Shown here piece by piece: positions 20,430-27,744 of a DNA stretch of 64,000 nt. Numbering within the stretch: position 1 is the first letter of the stretch; the number at the start of each line of letters is the position of its first letter. The notes below the pieces were generated by a model. The model had not been told where the DNA came from and did not search any database. It saw nothing but the letters and a program-made list of their open reading frames with translations. This stretch comes from a virus: the IMG/VR virus record IMGVR_UViG_3300017917_003446, positions 51,473 to 115,472 of that record; one strand, 5' to 3'. A program made the translations under genes and the position numbers.

Positions 20430-21275
20430 ATGAGCAAAATTAAAATATCGGAGTTATTTTATTCTATTCAAGGTGAAGGCCGATTCATGGGTGTGCCTTC
20501 AGTCTTTTTAAGGACATTTGGCTGTAACTTTACTTGTGACGGTTTCGGTAAACCTAAAGGAGAAAAGAGTGACGAGCGAGACATCATTGCACAACACGCG
20601 GATCAGTACAAAAATTATAAATCTTTGCCTTTGGTTACTACAGGCTGTGATAGTTACGCTAGTTGGGATGTTAGGTTCAAGCATCTTAGCCCTGTTGTGT
20701 CTATTGATGTCATTGTTGATGCCATTCTACATATGCTACCTCATGGCAAGTGGACAAGTGAGCATCTCGTTATTACAGGAGGCGAACCACTCCTTGGGTG
20801 GCAAAGAGCGTACCCTGATCTCCTCTCGCATCCCGATATGGTCAATCTTCAAGAGCTCACGTTCGAGACCAATGGAACACAAAAACTAGAAGCAAAATTT
20901 TCTGAATATCTTAAGACTCATTGGCGTAAAGGTTGGGATAAGCTTACTTTTAGTGTAAGTCCCAAGCTAAGTGTTAGTGGCGAAAAATGGGAAGATGCCA
21001 TACAACCTGAAGTAATTGAACAGTATCAGGAACATGGATATGTCTATTTAAAGTTTGTAGTTGCAGATGAAAAAGATGTAGCAGAGGCAGCTATGGCGGT
21101 TGAATGTTATAGAGATAATGGATTTACAGGTCCAGTTTATCTAATGCCTATTGGTGGAGTAGAATCAGTTTATGCTATGAATAATAAAAATGTTGCATTG
21201 ATGGCAATGAAGAAAGGCTGGCGTTATAGTGATAGACTTCAGGTGCCGTTATTTAAAAATGAGTGGGGAACTTAA
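20430..21275 (+). CDS. queE: 7-carboxy-7-deazaguanine synthase QueE (radical SAM), with long cluster-loop insertion
   Basis: 281 residues. The QueE start (ISELFYSIQGEGRFMGVPSVFLRTFGC) and the SAM-binding VITGGEPLLG are clear. QueE rearranges carboxy-tetrahydropterin to 7-carboxy-7-deazaguanine. The usual compact CxxxCxxC is broken here: Cys32 and Cys36 are followed by a 36-residue Lys/Asp-rich insert before Cys73 (TTGCDSYASWD, the equivalent of CDTxYAW). All three cluster ligands are therefore present. A patch at about 20740-20880 has visibly higher GC than its surroundings. First gene of the modification block; its stop overlaps folE. Confidence 0.88.
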   Translation: MSKIKISELFYSIQGEGRFMGVPSVFLRTFGCNFTCDGFGKPKGEKSDERDIIAQHADQYKNYKSLPLVTTGCDSYASWDVRFKHLSPVVSIDVIVDAILHMLPHGKWTSEHLVITGGEPLLGWQRAYPDLLSHPDMVNLQELTFETNGTQKLEAKFSEYLKTHWRKGWDKLTFSVSPKLSVSGEKWEDAIQPEVIEQYQEHGYVYLKFVVADEKDVAEAAMAVECYRDNGFTGPVYLMPIGGVESVYAMNNKNVALMAMKKGWRYSDRLQVPLFKNEWGT

Positions 21276-22009
21276 TGAATAGTAAACTTGTAGAAGAAGC
21301 ACCGTATCATCCTGGATATGAGGGTGCCGTTTTTGGGCGCCCAATGAGTCAAGTGATTCGTGAACGTATAAAGGAAGGACAGGCTAGATTTTTTGCCAAT
21401 GATAATATTTCACCTTTTATTCATAATGAAGATGAGATTGAATTGCTTGTAGATGAAGTAGCAGATAAGTTTCAACAAGTTTTACATTCTTTGTGTATTG
21501 ATACTCTTAACGATCATAATACACAGGACACAGCACGTCGTGTGGCTAAAATGTTTATAAAAGAAACATTTAGGGGTCGCTATGCTAATCCGCCTAAAGT
21601 TACAGCATTTCCTAATGTAACAGAATATGATGAATTATATGTGACAGGTCCTATTACTATAAGGAGTACTTGTGCCCATCATTTTCAAAACATTGTTGGT
21701 AAAGCATATATTGGCGTATTTCCGGGCAAGAATGTTATCGGCCTTAGTAAGTTTAATCGTATCACGGATTGGATCGCTTCTCGCCCGCAGATTCAAGAAG
21801 AAATGACTGTTCAAATTGCTGATGCTATTCAGAAAGAAACCGAAGCAGAAGGTGTTGCAGTATTGATCCAAGCAGAACATCATTGTATGACGCATAGAGG
21901 TGTAAAGGAACATGAATCAGATATGACTACATCTGTTATGCGAGGCGCATTCAGAGAACATCCTCATTTGAAACAAGAGTTTTTTAACATCATTCATAAA
22001 ATGAAATGA
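21275..22009 (+). CDS. folE: GTP cyclohydrolase I (FolE)
   Basis: 244 residues. It has TARRVAKMF-type GTP-binding elements, the zinc Cys and catalytic His in TCAHHF, the GLSKFNRI block, and the second zinc Cys in HHCMTHRG. It converts GTP to dihydroneopterin triphosphate, the entry to 7-deazaguanine as well as folate synthesis. The N-terminal ~60 residues (HPGYEGAVFGRPMS) are an extension over bacterial enzymes. The ATG overlaps the queE stop (TAATG); an upstream GTG is rejected. Its neighbours favour the 7-deazaguanine role. Confidence 0.93.
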   Translation: MNSKLVEEAPYHPGYEGAVFGRPMSQVIRERIKEGQARFFANDNISPFIHNEDEIELLVDEVADKFQQVLHSLCIDTLNDHNTQDTARRVAKMFIKETFRGRYANPPKVTAFPNVTEYDELYVTGPITIRSTCAHHFQNIVGKAYIGVFPGKNVIGLSKFNRITDWIASRPQIQEEMTVQIADAIQKETEAEGVAVLIQAEHHCMTHRGVKEHESDMTTSVMRGAFREHPHLKQEFFNIIHKMK

Positions 22010-23379
22010 AACTATATAGCAAACGAATAGCATTTTGTATTAGTGATCAACATCTTGTATCTCACGGTGGTATAGGTCAATTTGCCAAAGGATTTACTGA
22101 AATGGCAAATAGACTAGGTTGGAAAGTAGATATAATTATGGACAAGGCCCCAACAGGAGGTTTTAGTTCTGTTGTTGAGGGATTTGGAGCTACATTAGTC
22201 TATCCAACAACTTCAAATTCTTATTCGGAACATACTGGCACATTTGCATTTAATGATTCAGTAAATTTTGAGAAGATAATAAATTTTAGACGAGCATTAA
22301 TGTATGCTATGTCTATGAATCTTTATGATATGATTGTGTGCAATTCTATGGAGTCTATGCCCGCAGCATTCTCTCTTGATCTCGGTAGAAATATCCCTGT
22401 GGTATTTTATACACATGAAGAGTCTATGGTCTTTAGAGATACTAGAAAATTTAAAGGCGTATTTACAGAAAGTTGTAATGAATTTTTTAATAGATTAATG
22501 ACGGTAGAACATGCTTTCGTTGGCACACAATCGCAAAGAAATGTTGATGAATTAAAGTCGAATGGTAGTAACAATGCAACTTTGCTTCCAATGCCTATGT
22601 CAGAGCGAGATCTACTTACTCCTAACTATGAAGAAAGAACAGGTGTATTATACATAGGTAGATGGGAAGATAGAAAAAATCCAGAAGCATTTTTAGATGT
22701 AATAAAGAAGACTGGATTGCCTGCAAAAATTATTACAAATAGTAACGGAAAAAAGAAATTTGAAATACGTCTTGCTGAATTAGGTATTACAGATTATGAA
22801 TTAAAAGCCGGGATAGTAGGTAAGGAGAAAGTTGATTTTATAAAATCTGCAAGAGTGCACTTTAATCCTTCACTAAGAGAAAATTATCCATTTACATTCT
22901 TTGAATGTATGGGGCATATGCCAAGTATCGTTATAGATAAATCTGAATGGGTAACTAATTTCGATAAGAAATATTATGCTAGAATTAAAACAGAAGAAGT
23001 ACCTGCATTCATTAAAAAGATATATGAAAATATGAATCCTAAAGAATGGTATGATACTGGCGCTTTAGAATACGTAAAACAGTTAGATGAGAACACTGCA
23101 GATAAATGGGTAAACTTTTTGGACTCATACTCGCCTTCATCTATATCTAAATCTGATTCGGCAAAAATTAATACATATGATACAGTTAAATATTTGGATT
23201 TCATAAAAGAATTAAATAGAAAGTCTTTGGCTATCGAAGACATTAAAAGTGTATTGACAAATAAGCATAAGTATAATATAATCTATACTGATGACAACAC
23301 CTATCTATCAAAAGACAAACACTTTGTCCCCAACGAAAAGACTAGTAATAGTGCTAGTCTAGAGGATTTATTTGCATGA
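22006..23379 (+). CDS. GT-B glycosyltransferase in the modification block
   Basis: 457 residues. The N-terminal half has the GGIGQFAKGF loop of GT4-like enzymes. The C-terminal half has GVLYIGRWEDRKNPEAF and the FNPSLRENYPFTFFECM acceptor/nucleotide-sugar motif with the E-x7-E-like pattern. A ~90-residue charged tail ends in SLEDLFA, identical to the end of the DpdA encoded next. The gene is coupled to folE and dpdA by ATGA overlaps. It might glucosylate the modified base, by analogy to T4 DNA glucosyltransferases, or act on glycans; the context favours DNA. Confidence 0.75.
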   Translation: MKLYSKRIAFCISDQHLVSHGGIGQFAKGFTEMANRLGWKVDIIMDKAPTGGFSSVVEGFGATLVYPTTSNSYSEHTGTFAFNDSVNFEKIINFRRALMYAMSMNLYDMIVCNSMESMPAAFSLDLGRNIPVVFYTHEESMVFRDTRKFKGVFTESCNEFFNRLMTVEHAFVGTQSQRNVDELKSNGSNNATLLPMPMSERDLLTPNYEERTGVLYIGRWEDRKNPEAFLDVIKKTGLPAKIITNSNGKKKFEIRLAELGITDYELKAGIVGKEKVDFIKSARVHFNPSLRENYPFTFFECMGHMPSIVIDKSEWVTNFDKKYYARIKTEEVPAFIKKIYENMNPKEWYDTGALEYVKQLDENTADKWVNFLDSYSPSSISKSDSAKINTYDTVKYLDFIKELNRKSLAIEDIKSVLTNKHKYNIIYTDDNTYLSKDKHFVPNEKTSNSASLEDLFA

Positions 23380-24659
23380 AGATTTTCGAATATGTGATTT
23401 CCGGTCCTGCGTATCTGCGCCTTGGTGCAGAACAATGTAACGACCCGGAAACACTTGACATGATTAATACTCTTATTTCAAAGACATGCCATAATCAAAA
23501 TAATCATACCTTCTCACTTTTGTATAACGGTTTTACAGAAAAGAACTTTGGTGCTAAACTACAAAAGTACAGACCTGCTATTAAACAGATTCACGCAGAC
23601 TCAGGCGGTTTGCAGATTATAACTCGAGGATTACAAAATACTCCTGAGGTAAGAGATAAAGTATATACCAATCAAGGCACTTATGCAGATATAGGTATGG
23701 CTTTTGATGAGATTCCTGTTAAGGCTACTCAGGATGGTAAATCATCTAAGATAGATACCAAGCGTAGATTCTTTGACAGAGAAAATTTTGATGCGTATGC
23801 TACTCAAACAGGCAAAAATGTTCGAGCACAAATAGAAAAATTTGCAGAACTTAAATCTAATTGTAGACCATTTGTAATTATACATGGCGCATCCCATGAT
23901 ACATATCAACAATGGGCGGAGGCAATTTTAAGAGAAGTATCTGAACCATTACATGATAGAATCGGTGGTGTAGCTATGGGATCAGCTGCACTTGGTATGG
24001 GGCAGTTAGAAGATGTAAAAAGAGCATTCTATGTTACTCTAATGCCTTTTAGTAAACCATTTCATCTACACGTACTTGGTGTTGGTGCATTAAGACGTAT
24101 GCTTCCTTATTTACTATTCAGTCAAACAGGTTTATATGATGGCATTGATATCTCTTATGATTCTACTACTCATTCTATGTCCTTGGATAATGGTCTCTTT
24201 TATTTCTCACACTATAAAAAGACTCCGGGCTCCGCGTATGGCGGTACGTCGGTTAAAATGGGACGAGAATACTCAAACATTTATAGAACAGTGACAGAAG
24301 AAATTAATAATGTTTGTGGTACTACTTACGAGCCAGAAGAATATCACAAGTTAATGAACTATCAGGTAACTGCCTATTTAGAAAAAGGTGGTAAGTTCAT
24401 AGATGTTATGAGAGCAAGATTAGCGTTTATTCTAACTAATGTACATAACTTTACTAAAGATGTTTCAGAACTTACTCAATCTAAAGAACAATTCTTAAAA
24501 TTTGCGAGAGACAAGGGTTGTGAAAATGAATATGCTACATTATTTGAAGTGAAAAATTTAACAGACTTTCTACATTGGGAAAAGCATGTGGGATGTCATA
24601 TGGAATCAGAATCAGTTGCAGATAAACCACCAGTATCGTTAGAGGATCTATTCGCATGA
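23376..24659 (+). CDS. dpdA: DpdA: TGT-like 7-deazaguanine DNA transglycosylase
   Basis: 427 residues. The TGT-like beta-barrel signature IHADSGGLQII near residue 75 carries the base-exchange Asp. The barrel continues through FVIIHGAS and GGVAMGSAALGMG, a tRNA-guanine transglycosylase-like substrate site, then HVLGVGALRRMLP. Phage TGT homologues next to FolE/QueD/QueE are DpdA enzymes that swap guanine in DNA for a 7-deazaguanine. The zinc-Cys pattern of bacterial TGT is not evident. It ends SLEDLFA. Overlaps both neighbours by 4 bases. The alternative of a tRNA-acting TGT is less likely in a phage. Confidence 0.8.
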   Translation: MKIFEYVISGPAYLRLGAEQCNDPETLDMINTLISKTCHNQNNHTFSLLYNGFTEKNFGAKLQKYRPAIKQIHADSGGLQIITRGLQNTPEVRDKVYTNQGTYADIGMAFDEIPVKATQDGKSSKIDTKRRFFDRENFDAYATQTGKNVRAQIEKFAELKSNCRPFVIIHGASHDTYQQWAEAILREVSEPLHDRIGGVAMGSAALGMGQLEDVKRAFYVTLMPFSKPFHLHVLGVGALRRMLPYLLFSQTGLYDGIDISYDSTTHSMSLDNGLFYFSHYKKTPGSAYGGTSVKMGREYSNIYRTVTEEINNVCGTTYEPEEYHKLMNYQVTAYLEKGGKFIDVMRARLAFILTNVHNFTKDVSELTQSKEQFLKFARDKGCENEYATLFEVKNLTDFLHWEKHVGCHMESESVADKPPVSLEDLFA

Positions 24660-25039
24660 TTATTAAACAAGACGTCAGACCAAGAACAGAAACCTATATT
24701 AAAATTAGAACTGAATTTGAAGGATATCATCGTTATCCTATTGCTAGTCAAATTGATCCTCGTATTGCCTTTCTTGAAAATGAACACAGGCATATGTTTA
24801 AGGTTGAGGTTAAAATCTCTGTATCACATCTTGATAGAGAGCTAGAGTTCTTTTTAGTTAAATGGGCACTGCAAGATTTTATCAAAGGCGGCAATATGAA
24901 TCATAAATCTTGTGAAATGATTGCTACAGATATTCTTGAACAACATCTTATTCCAAAGTATGGGCAAAGATTTTATGAGATTGTAGTATCAGAAGATGGT
25001 GAGTCTGACGGTATCGTAACATATTATCCGGGTGAGTAA
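24656..25039 (+). CDS. QueD-like T-fold protein retaining zinc triad only
   Basis: 127 residues that line up by eye with E. coli QueD. FEGYHRYP matches FEAAHRLP (first zinc His, residue 25) and EHRHMFKVEV matches LHGHSFMVRL (His44, His46). The C-terminal SCEMIATDILE and the final VTYYPGE match SEVLAKWIWD and IYRGE. It lacks the catalytic Cys and the Asp-His pair. The other QueD homologue, 27235-27744, has the opposite set. It may be a partner subunit or an evolved paralogue. Conserved position directly after dpdA. Confidence 0.6.
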   Translation: MIIKQDVRPRTETYIKIRTEFEGYHRYPIASQIDPRIAFLENEHRHMFKVEVKISVSHLDRELEFFLVKWALQDFIKGGNMNHKSCEMIATDILEQHLIPKYGQRFYEIVVSEDGESDGIVTYYPGE

Positions 25040-26205
25040 TGGGCAAACTATATTATATGGGGCTGGAGCCTTACGAGGGCCGTTACACTTTGCAGTTACA
25101 GCATTGGAGTGAGGAAGTATTCAAGCGTAGAGGTATTGAATATGAGGTGATTCATGGTGAGTTACTTGATACTTCAAAGTCTATTGTTACGGGGCAAGTA
25201 TTAGATGCCCATGGTCGCAGCTATTATTCTTTGACACAGATGGCAAAACTTGTAGCAAAAATGAAGGCGGGTGAAGTAACTTGGGAAGATACTATTTTCT
25301 TTGAGGATATGTTTACTCCTGGTATGGAAGCATTGCCTTACATCATGGATCAGACTACTCCAGAATTTTGCCCTAATGTGTGGGTAAGATGTTTGGCACA
25401 AACTATTGATCCTGACGACTTTCTTCATGTGTGGCACATGGAAGAATGGATGAGTAAATATGAGCATATGGTCAATACATTTGTCAAAGGTGTTTTGGCA
25501 TCTAATGAAGAAATGGTTGCTCATATGAAAATTGCAGGTTGGAATGTTCCTATTCATAATATTTCTGGTCTAGCATTTGGTAAAGAAGAAGTACAATCTA
25601 GAGTATCTGTTAGAAAAGACTTTCATAATCGTAAAAGGCGTGTATGTTTTGCTGCTAGATTTGATCAGGAAAAGCAACCTAATTTCTTTATGGATATGAT
25701 CGAAAGATTAAAACCATATCATGATATAGAGTTTTGTGTCCTATCAGGTGGACCTTTGCGTAGTAATGATGAATTGATACTTCAAAGGGCAAGAGAACTT
25801 AAACAAAAAGGTATGTTAACTATTCATGAGAACTTGAAGAAGAATGAGTATTATGAAATACTAGCAGATTCCCGAGTATTGTTTAATTGTGCTCTACAGG
25901 ATTGGGTATCTAATACAGCATCAGAAGCAGACGCACTTGGTACTAATTGTTTATATCCTGCGTATCGTTCTTTTCCTGAGACTTTCGCAAATGATTCTGA
26001 GTGTTTGTATATTCCTTGGTCTTGTGAAGATGCTGACACTAAATTAATTAAATTGCTTAATAAGCCAAGGCAAAATTTAGGCAAATTATCTGATTGGACA
26101 AATGGCACTATTGATCGTTGCTTAGACATAATGTATGATGAATCAGGTCAATGGTATAGAGGCGGCATAAGGTATCGTAATCATGTCACAGAATCTAAAT
26201 ACTAA
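25039..26205 (+). CDS. GT-B glycosyltransferase (GT4-like)
   Basis: 388 residues. The C-terminal domain has RRVCFAARFDQEKQPNFF, the classical GT4 entry, then a stretch of DSRVLFNCALQDWVSNTASEA, with an S/T-x-SEA acidic motif binding the nucleotide-sugar diphosphate. The N-terminal half includes a conserved DTIFFEDMFTPGMEALPYI segment. It overlaps the following epimerase gene by 23 bases. It sits between two QueD-like genes, so base or glycan decoration are both open. Confidence 0.75.
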   Translation: MGKLYYMGLEPYEGRYTLQLQHWSEEVFKRRGIEYEVIHGELLDTSKSIVTGQVLDAHGRSYYSLTQMAKLVAKMKAGEVTWEDTIFFEDMFTPGMEALPYIMDQTTPEFCPNVWVRCLAQTIDPDDFLHVWHMEEWMSKYEHMVNTFVKGVLASNEEMVAHMKIAGWNVPIHNISGLAFGKEEVQSRVSVRKDFHNRKRRVCFAARFDQEKQPNFFMDMIERLKPYHDIEFCVLSGGPLRSNDELILQRARELKQKGMLTIHENLKKNEYYEILADSRVLFNCALQDWVSNTASEADALGTNCLYPAYRSFPETFANDSECLYIPWSCEDADTKLIKLLNKPRQNLGKLSDWTNGTIDRCLDIMYDESGQWYRGGIRYRNHVTESKY

Positions 26206-27175
26206 AAATATTTTAGTAACAGGAGCCGCCGGTTACATTGGCGGTATAACTTGTATTGAATTAAAACGTAAAGGATATAATGTTTATGGTGTAGATAGAA
26301 GATATTTTGCACACTTAAATAAATTTTACGATGAATTTTTACAGTGTGATTTTACTGATTATGAAACATATCTGTTAATTAAACGAGTAAAACCTGCAGC
26401 AATTATTCATTGTGCTGGTACAAGTTTAGTTGGTCCTAGCTTTAAATCTCCAGGTGTGTACTTTGATAATAATGTAGCCAGAACAAATCGCCTACTTAAT
26501 TTTATTAAAGATGAATTACCGAATACCAAGTTTATTTTTAGTAGTAGTGCAGCAGTATATGGTAATTGGAATAAAGATGCATATAGAGAGTTTGATGACA
26601 CTAAACCGGTGTCCCCTTACGGGCAAACTAAATTAATGGCAGAAGAGATACTACATTGGTATCATAAAGCATATGGTTTAAAATATGTTGCACTAAGATA
26701 TTTCAATGCGTGTGGCGCAGACCCTGAAGGTGAACACGGTCAAGAACCAGATGCTACACATATTTTTGCTAAATTATTCGATGCTGCATTGAACGATAAA
26801 CCTTTCAATTTAAATGGTGCAAATTTTCCCACAAAGGATAATACCTGTATACGAGATTATGTGCATGTAACAGATATTGCAGATGCACATATAAAATGTA
26901 TTGACACTGATACTCAAGGGATATATAATTTAGGAAGTTACAAAGGAACTTCTAATCTTGACTGTTTAGAATATGTTGAAACTTTACTAAAAAAAGAGAT
27001 TGTCGTAAATGTTCAACCTGCTCTTGAAGGAGACCCTGCTATTTTAGTGGCAGATCCTACTAAATTTACAGCAAAAACAGGATGGACTGCTTGGAGAACT
27101 ATACCTATGGTAGTAAACAATTTAGAAAAATGGTATAATTCTAATATCTATAAAAATTATCTCAAGCGGCCTTAA
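26183..27175 (+). CDS. UDP-glucose 4-epimerase-like SDR (GalE family)
   Basis: 330 residues. Extended short-chain dehydrogenase with the NAD loop VTGAAGYIGG at residue ~13, the catalytic Ser-Tyr-Lys set (FSSSAAVYG, then PYGQTKLMAEE), and RYFNACGADPEGEHGQ, which is the typical GalE stretch. It likely interconverts UDP-Glc/UDP-Gal or the HexNAc forms, and could supply a sugar donor to the two flanking transferases. About 60 bases without a gene follow. Confidence 0.85.
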   Translation: MSQNLNTKNILVTGAAGYIGGITCIELKRKGYNVYGVDRRYFAHLNKFYDEFLQCDFTDYETYLLIKRVKPAAIIHCAGTSLVGPSFKSPGVYFDNNVARTNRLLNFIKDELPNTKFIFSSSAAVYGNWNKDAYREFDDTKPVSPYGQTKLMAEEILHWYHKAYGLKYVALRYFNACGADPEGEHGQEPDATHIFAKLFDAALNDKPFNLNGANFPTKDNTCIRDYVHVTDIADAHIKCIDTDTQGIYNLGSYKGTSNLDCLEYVETLLKKEIVVNVQPALEGDPAILVADPTKFTAKTGWTAWRTIPMVVNNLEKWYNSNIYKNYLKRP

Positions 27176-27234
27176 GACGCTCATCCCGCTCAATAAATTC
27201 TGCGTGTCATCAAACTTACTCAACGAGGCAAGAG

Positions 27235-27744
27235 ATGGCTTTAATCAACCTATCAAGACCATACAAATACACTAGTACAAAAGAATACCATGATGCATTT
27301 CCGTGTGCATATAGACAATGGCGCGCCGATAGTCATTGTAACTTAATACATGGTTATAGTTTTTCAATGAAGTTTTATTTTGGCACAGATCATTTAGATG
27401 TTCGTAATTGGGCGGCAGATTATGGTGGTCTAAAAGAACTAAAGAAAATACTTGAAGATCAGTTCGATCACACTTTGCTAGTAGCACAAGATGATCCAGA
27501 GCTTGAAACTTTTAAATTATTACAAGAAAAGAATCTAGCTAAACTAACTATTCTACCAAGACTAGGTTGTGAAGGTTTGGCAGATATGTTATACAAATAT
27601 GTAAATGGTGTTTATATCCCAGATATGTGGGGTCCTGGTGAAGCAGAAAGACTTTGGTGTTATCGTGTAGAAGTTAGAGAGACGCAAAGTAATATGGCAT
27701 TCAGAGAAGGGCACCGAGAATGGAACGAGGATTTGTTTAGCTAA
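27235..27744 (+). CDS. queD: QueD-type 6-carboxytetrahydropterin synthase with substituted zinc site
   Basis: 169 residues of the phage QueD family. Catalytic residues are seen: Cys35 in SHCNLIHG, Asp-His in QFDHTLL, Glu in CEGLADML and in VEVRET. Two of the three usual zinc His are replaced: FPCAYRQ has Tyr26 where QueD has His, and HGY has Tyr41 for the second His of HGH, leaving His39. Canonical role: dihydroneopterin triphosphate to carboxy-tetrahydropterin, feeding QueE. Ribosome-binding site GAGGCAAGAG. It ends NEDLFS, resembling the tails of DpdA and its GT. Confidence 0.82.
   Translation: MALINLSRPYKYTSTKEYHDAFPCAYRQWRADSHCNLIHGYSFSMKFYFGTDHLDVRNWAADYGGLKELKKILEDQFDHTLLVAQDDPELETFKLLQEKNLAKLTILPRLGCEGLADMLYKYVNGVYIPDMWGPGEAERLWCYRVEVRETQSNMAFREGHREWNEDLFS

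Follow-up and report, generated by a model that had tools for sequence, protein, structure and literature searches.

The window analysed here, a 64,000-base stretch (bases 51473-115472) of the 115,472-base IMG/VR virus record IMGVR_UViG_3300017917_003446, which may itself be a fragment, carries a run of eight genes that we read as a 7-deazaguanine DNA-modification block. The genes encode, in order, QueE, FolE, a glycosyltransferase (GTb), a DNA-guanine transglycosylase of the DpdA2 type, a 127-residue QueD-fold protein of the family phrog_17812, a second glycosyltransferase (GTa), a GalE-like epimerase and QueD. In DpdA2 loci the 127-residue family takes the place of QueC, and it is closely linked to GTa. 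We propose, tentatively and at rather less than an even chance for the whole, that the 127-residue protein decarboxylates 7-carboxy-7-deazaguanine (CDG), that DpdA2 inserts the product in DNA, that the inserted base is glycosylated and that the DNA becomes resistant to nucleases. The QueC-free deazaguanine core of this proposal we consider quite likely; for the sugar step, which we read from gene linkage, the chances are a little under one half.

Replacement of QueC by a QueD-fold family

A sequence-only reading of this stretch had recognised QueE, FolE, a DSGGLQ-bearing DpdA and two QueD-like proteins in one overlapping run, all of which we found (20430-27744, + strand), and had seen neither QueC nor QueF in the window. 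A profile search of the full record extends this absence, with no match to QueC (PF06508) or QueF (PF14489). The record was also negative for GATase_2, which is weak evidence on amidotransferases since the same search missed KVP40, whose record cites GATase_2, and the PADLOC models gave no useful match.

The co-occurrence of QueC and phrog_17812 was followed in contig surveys that took the best 80 loci per scan, the scans having confirmed at least 584 stretches with phrog_17812, at least 379 with DpdA2 and at least 392 with GTa. Among 57 distinct DpdA2 loci that had sufficient flanking sequence, phrog_17812 was found without QueC in 46 and QueC without phrog_17812 in 10, while one locus had neither and none had both; the Fisher value for this mutual exclusion is 2.5e-10, to be read with the caution that loci from the same phage group are relatives, so that such values overstate independence. 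QueC did not exceed the cut-off in this record or in 10 phage records with phrog_17812, among which X1 gave only a 16-bit match. Of 16 large contigs that carry phrog_17812, 15 have no QueC, and the remaining one has two partial hits, both in the final quarter of the model. QueC is also missing from the complete records of two relatives, Synechococcus phage BUCT-ZZ01 and Acidovorax phage ACP17. Vibrio phage KVP40 shows the reverse, with QueC present and phrog_17812 absent.

The 127-residue protein has no Pfam match, and neither its family nor DpdA2 had a significant hit when searched directly by sequence against PDB chains, so that structure models were needed. The AlphaFold2 model of the 127-residue protein (pLDDT 91.6) has the strand and helix order of a T-fold, and its best PDB match is E. 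coli QueD (4ntk, E 9e-5, TM about 0.7). Five residues are invariant in the family (H25, H44, H46, E87 and E113), and the three histidines are positioned where QueD binds zinc. The position of QueD's catalytic cysteine, before the HxH motif, is occupied by an invariant leucine (L40). The description of two QueD-like proteins is right as to fold, which both share; the 127-residue protein, however, belongs to a separate family without the QueD cysteine. The other protein (27235-27744) keeps C35 and FDH, with HGY in place of HGH. Because it retains C35 and shares a family with the QueD of QueC-type loci, it is the likely QueD of the block, which leaves the 127-residue protein with a different function.

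Since a QueD-fold protein appears whenever the step from CDG to preQ0 is missing, the 127-residue protein most probably consumes CDG, and its replacement of QueC makes a CDG decarboxylase the most likely activity. The sequence-only reading had let the pathway end at QueE, with CDG or a host-derived preQ0 as product; we depart from it here, as phrog_17812 replaces QueC and probably uses CDG up. Decarboxylation also fits the CDG decarboxylase, DpdL, that Cui et al. (2023) reportedly predicted, and phrog_17812 is a candidate for that protein.

A DpdA-family transglycosylase

The 427-residue protein falls in phrog_10773 and is homologous to KVP40 DpdA2 (tblastn E 3e-49). An AlphaFold2 model built from 30 sequences (pLDDT 91.4) was compared with solved structures by Foldseek, and the seven best matches were all tRNA-guanine transglycosylases (TGT), headed by that of Z. 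mobilis (6yry, E 2.5e-8). The DSGGLQ motif lies at residues 75-80; its D75 and the D262 of a second motif, SYDST, are invariant in 30 DpdA2 relatives, and we take them, by motif position and not by superposition, to be the two catalytic TGT aspartates. The CxCxxC zinc motif of tRNA-acting TGT occurs in none of the 30. Together with the phrog_10773 match and the relationship to KVP40 DpdA2, this places the protein with DpdA and not with the tRNA-acting enzymes, and backs the earlier assignment of a 7-deazaguanine DNA-modification block that has a DpdA-family enzyme and no QueC. From its membership in the DpdA family, DpdA2 would very probably exchange guanine in DNA for a deazaguanine.

Linkage of a glycosyltransferase and an epimerase

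Two glycosyltransferases and a GalE-like epimerase lie inside the run and had been left out of its earlier interpretation. Of 100 distinct phrog_17812 loci, 92 contain GTa, and of 87 distinct GTa loci, 86 contain phrog_17812; none of 13 QueC loci has GTa. The transglycosylase that accompanies the pair is DpdA2 in 51 loci and, in 41, a member of a 520-residue DSGGFQ family that is related to DpdA2 by hhalign (E 1.1e-6); at one further locus, in Sinorhizobium phage Phosso, the 520-residue copy lies elsewhere in the genome. Phages that carry GTa infect Synechococcus, Acidovorax, Xanthomonas, Pseudomonas and Sinorhizobium, and Magnetospirillum genomes have it together with phrog_17812, the 520-residue family and a QueD.

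In 22 diverse GTa proteins (median identity 33%) invariant residues are found in both domains. Nine of these positions fall before residue 150, in the N-terminal half, which is the acceptor side. R207 and K212, which would form the Arg/Lys donor site of a GT4 domain, are invariant as well, and the clade of this phage has DX7E where other clades have EX7E. This active-site variation tracks the epimerase: the ratio of loci with an adjacent GalE to loci without one is 43:6 for the D/L variant (Asp for Glu and Leu for His) and 2:35 for the ordinary E/H form, and within the 520-residue background only, where numbers are small, the trend is the same (4:4 and 2:22, respectively). The covariation suggests that GalE supplies the sugar donor for GTa.

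We also considered that GTa might glucosylate hydroxymethylcytosine. That candidate is weakened by the lack of the TS/dCMP-hydroxymethylase family in this contig, BUCT-ZZ01, ACP17, X1 and most large contigs, which also makes hydroxymethylpyrimidines formed by this route unlikely acceptors; a TET/JBP-type route lies outside that search.

Organisation of the block

The eight genes (Table 1) share one direction (+) and lie between UvsW/late-sigma genes and gp47/gp46. From QueE-FolE to GTa-GalE each gene overlaps the next, by 13, 4, 4, 4, 1 and 23 bases in turn; a gap of 59 bases then separates GalE from QueD, the one pair of the seven that does not overlap, and QueD overlaps the gene that follows it by 1 base. 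As the same gene order recurs in 39 DpdA2-seeded IMG/VR loci of at least 14 kb, the block is not a chance assembly. The adjoining gp46 homologue is about 47-51% identical to its closest relatives, from T4-like phages of Methylophilales and Synechococcus.

Table 1. Genes of the block, with positions in the window and the matches on which each assignment is based
Feature	Position	Strand	Evidence
QueE, CDG synthase (radical SAM)	20430..21275	+	phrog_2076 E 2e-51; TIGR03365 E 1e-16 (below cut-off); 6nhl_A E 2e-8
FolE, GTP cyclohydrolase I	21263..22009	+	PF01227 E 1.9e-50
GTb, GT4-like glycosyltransferase, 457 aa	22006..23379	+	no Pfam match of its own; EX7E motif (ENYPFTFFE) in translation; BUCT-ZZ01 relative (41% identity) matches PF13692, E 3e-5 (below cut-off)
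DpdA2-type DNA-guanine transglycosylase, 427 aa	23376..24659	+	phrog_10773 E 7e-97; KVP40 DpdA2 relative
QueD-fold protein, phrog_17812, 127 aa, predicted CDG-processing enzyme	24656..25039	+	phrog_17812 E 3e-20; fold from model
GTa, GT4-like glycosyltransferase, ExxExRYT motif, 388 aa	25039..26205	+	PF00534 E 8e-6 (just below cut-off)
GalE-like UDP-sugar 4-epimerase	26183..27175	+	PF01370 E 2e-50; TIGR01179 galE E 4e-76 (255.9 bits, just below the cut-off of 262.3)
QueD, 6-carboxytetrahydropterin synthase, 169 aa	27235..27744	+	PF01242 E 1.8e-15; phrog_2389 E 1e-36

The cluster cysteines of QueE are Cys32-x3-Cys36 and, after an insertion, Cys73. The spacer between C36 and C73 is 36 residues long, and a similar insertion is seen in BUCT-ZZ01, Paride and X1. 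In QueD a tyrosine stands where the first zinc histidine is expected, as it does in phage relatives that include those of QueC-type loci.

Proposed pathway and alternatives

Sequence or structure supports the enzyme families, their folds, the absence of QueC and the strict linkage. In the pathway that we propose, FolE, QueD and QueE would convert GTP to CDG, as their family assignments suggest, and the 127-residue protein would act on CDG in place of QueC, most likely removing the carboxyl to give 7-deazaguanine. DpdA2 would then swap DNA guanine for this base, to which GTa, perhaps with GTb, would add one or two sugars from a donor provided by the GalE-like epimerase, and the final DNA would carry a glycosylated 7-deazaguanine and resist host nucleases. 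In this scheme the decarboxylation, the acceptor and donor of the sugar, the order of the steps and the protective role are what we infer. A precedent for the sugar step is huimycin synthesis, for which the glycosylation of a 7-deazaguanine by a glycosyltransferase has been proposed (PMC7439116).

Several observations weigh against this proposal. The GTa clade of this phage has Asp for the first Glu of EX7E and Leu for a conserved His, so its activity could differ from that of other clades. Eight distinct phrog_17812 loci, Cellulophaga phiST among them, have no GTa and carry instead a different short protein, TGT275; the sugar is therefore not a necessary part of the system. Moreover, after decarboxylation C7 would have no group for ordinary O-glycosylation, and the sugar would therefore need the 2-amino group, O6 or C7 itself.

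The alternative that survives best, though we think it unlikely, is that the 127-residue protein decarboxylates CDG, that DpdA2 inserts the product and that the modification ends with plain 7-deazaguanine (dDG), while both glycosyltransferases and the epimerase have other targets, such as the surface sugars of the host or a different base. The eight loci without GTa fit this well, since in them the base pathway stands alone, and so does the dDG that Cui et al. (2023) reportedly found in phage DNA, with a predicted CDG decarboxylase, DpdL. The glycosyltransferase clusters of T4-like cyanophages, moreover, are assigned to surface polysaccharides (PMC7824862). However, the bond between GTa and phrog_17812 holds across bacterial islands and phages whose hosts are unrelated, and the nine invariant acceptor-side positions of GTa are unlike what would be expected of an enzyme that follows changing host glycans.

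A small chance is left to the view of the sequence-only reading, that DpdA2 inserts CDG itself and that dCDG is the final base. It agrees with the lack of matches to QueC, QueF and, in a weak search, GATase_2 in the contig, and CDG was considered by Hutinet et al. for mycobacteriophage Bipper, which misses only QueC (PMC6884629), but this view assigns no function to the second QueD-fold family, which is conserved and takes the place of QueC. We give a very small chance to the insertion of preQ0, with QueC coming from the host or from a missing part of the genome. The contig may indeed be incomplete, and DpdA2 phages such as nt-1 carry dPreQ0 (PMC12028318); yet complete relatives with a similar gene set lack QueC, as do nearly all the large contigs, and in the surveyed loci it never stands alongside phrog_17812. 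The case is equally slight for a retained and glycosylated carboxyl, in which the 127-residue protein would bind or activate CDG and GTa would make a sugar ester or related adduct: this accounts for the pairing of GTa with phrog_17812 and offers the transferase an obvious acceptor group, but the phrog_17812 loci without GTa would be left with no obvious product. Least credible is a transglycosylase acting on tRNA in a block that boosts queuosine-type modification of host tRNA, as, despite its best structural matches being TGT, the enzyme belongs to the phage DpdA2 family and lacks the zinc motif, and a block without QueC cannot make preQ0.

We thus retain decarboxylation followed by insertion and glycosylation as the working proposal. 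That it describes a widespread QueC-independent branch, in which a QueD-fold decarboxylase and a dedicated glycosyltransferase lead to a glycosylated 7-deazaguanine in the DNA of phages and some bacteria, is possible, and on so broad a claim we lean towards doubt. Both DpdA2 and clusters without QueC have been described before (PMC6884629). A predicted CDG decarboxylase is reported as well. The pairing with a dedicated glycosyltransferase, the co-variation with the epimerase and the bacterial islands appear to be new, the parts of the literature examined containing no mention of them. If the proposal is true, phages glycosylate a purine in DNA; to our knowledge, the sugar-bearing phage bases known to date are pyrimidines. 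It would also give a function to mostly unannotated families in hundreds of viral contigs, and would make a QueD-fold CDG decarboxylase available for the production of 7-deazaguanines.

Related families and loci

The 520-residue DSGGFQ family (Paride_0115, L008:6218-7837) has no annotation, is shared by jumbo phages of Pseudomonas and a large number of viral contigs, and is likely a further type of DpdA. TGT275 (L007:9819-10598), a family of 260-290 residues, lies near phrog_17812 in loci without GTa; we do not call it a transglycosylase because hhalign gave no link to DpdA2. A family of 130-180 residues is encoded upstream of phrog_17812 in many loci (e.g. L048:7973-8494, and in ACP17 L005:11594-11992). 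A phosphoribosyltransferase, which could salvage the free base to the nucleotide, lies near the block in 35 loci, with one in BUCT-ZZ01 (L055:14056-14577; L004:8733-9194).

In Magnetospirillum aberrantis SpK (L344:6179-12675; similar in L342, L343 and L346, and partly in L345) a run encodes a CoiA-type nuclease, GTa, phrog_17812, the 520-residue transglycosylase-like protein and a QueD that has the usual LHGHSY motif, with an integrase nearby. The run is perhaps an island for DNA modification or defence in the bacterium. A Methanoperedenaceae archaeon (L333:4840-10388; similar in L332) has QueD, QueE and FolE followed by a linalool dehydratase-like protein, phrog_17812 and a methyltransferase, with no match to GTa or to a transglycosylase, and looks like a small-molecule cluster.

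Comparison with known systems

The present block resembles a QueC-less route from CDG to deazaguanine in DNA that Cui et al. are said to have described in 2023, reportedly with a predicted CDG decarboxylase, DpdL, and with both dDG and dCDG in phage DNA; that route is not known to include a glycosyltransferase. In tubercidin synthesis, TubF is likewise proposed to decarboxylate a 7-carboxy-7-deazaguanine compound; it differs from the protein proposed here in being a UbiD-family and not a QueD-fold enzyme, and in its proposed substrate, the CDG nucleotide (PMC6112128).

Among phages, the Schizotequatroviruses (Vibrio phages KVP40 and nt-1) are T4-like, as here, and share FolE, QueE and a DpdA2 homologue, but KVP40 has QueC and QueF and lacks phrog_17812 and GTa; the DNA of nt-1 carries dPreQ0 (PMC12028318). 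The Cellulophaga phage phiST group has QueD, QueE, FolE and phrog_17812, without QueC; unlike the present block it has neither GTa nor DpdA2, and a 259-residue protein (TGT275) lies close by. Two further relatives are ACP17 (KY979132), with QueD, FolE, DpdA2, GTa, phrog_17812 and QueE and no QueC, although the gene order is different and no GTb or GalE was found in the run, and BUCT-ZZ01 (ON615601), whose complete genome holds QueE, QueD, FolE, GTb, DpdA2, phrog_17812 and GTa in one run, again without QueC. BUCT-ZZ01 differs in that no GalE was found beside GTa and that a phosphoribosyltransferase lies in the run, and several of the block's proteins are annotated as hypothetical in it. It also differs in having a known host; ACP17 and Paride have known hosts too, and the prediction can therefore be tested now in these three phages.

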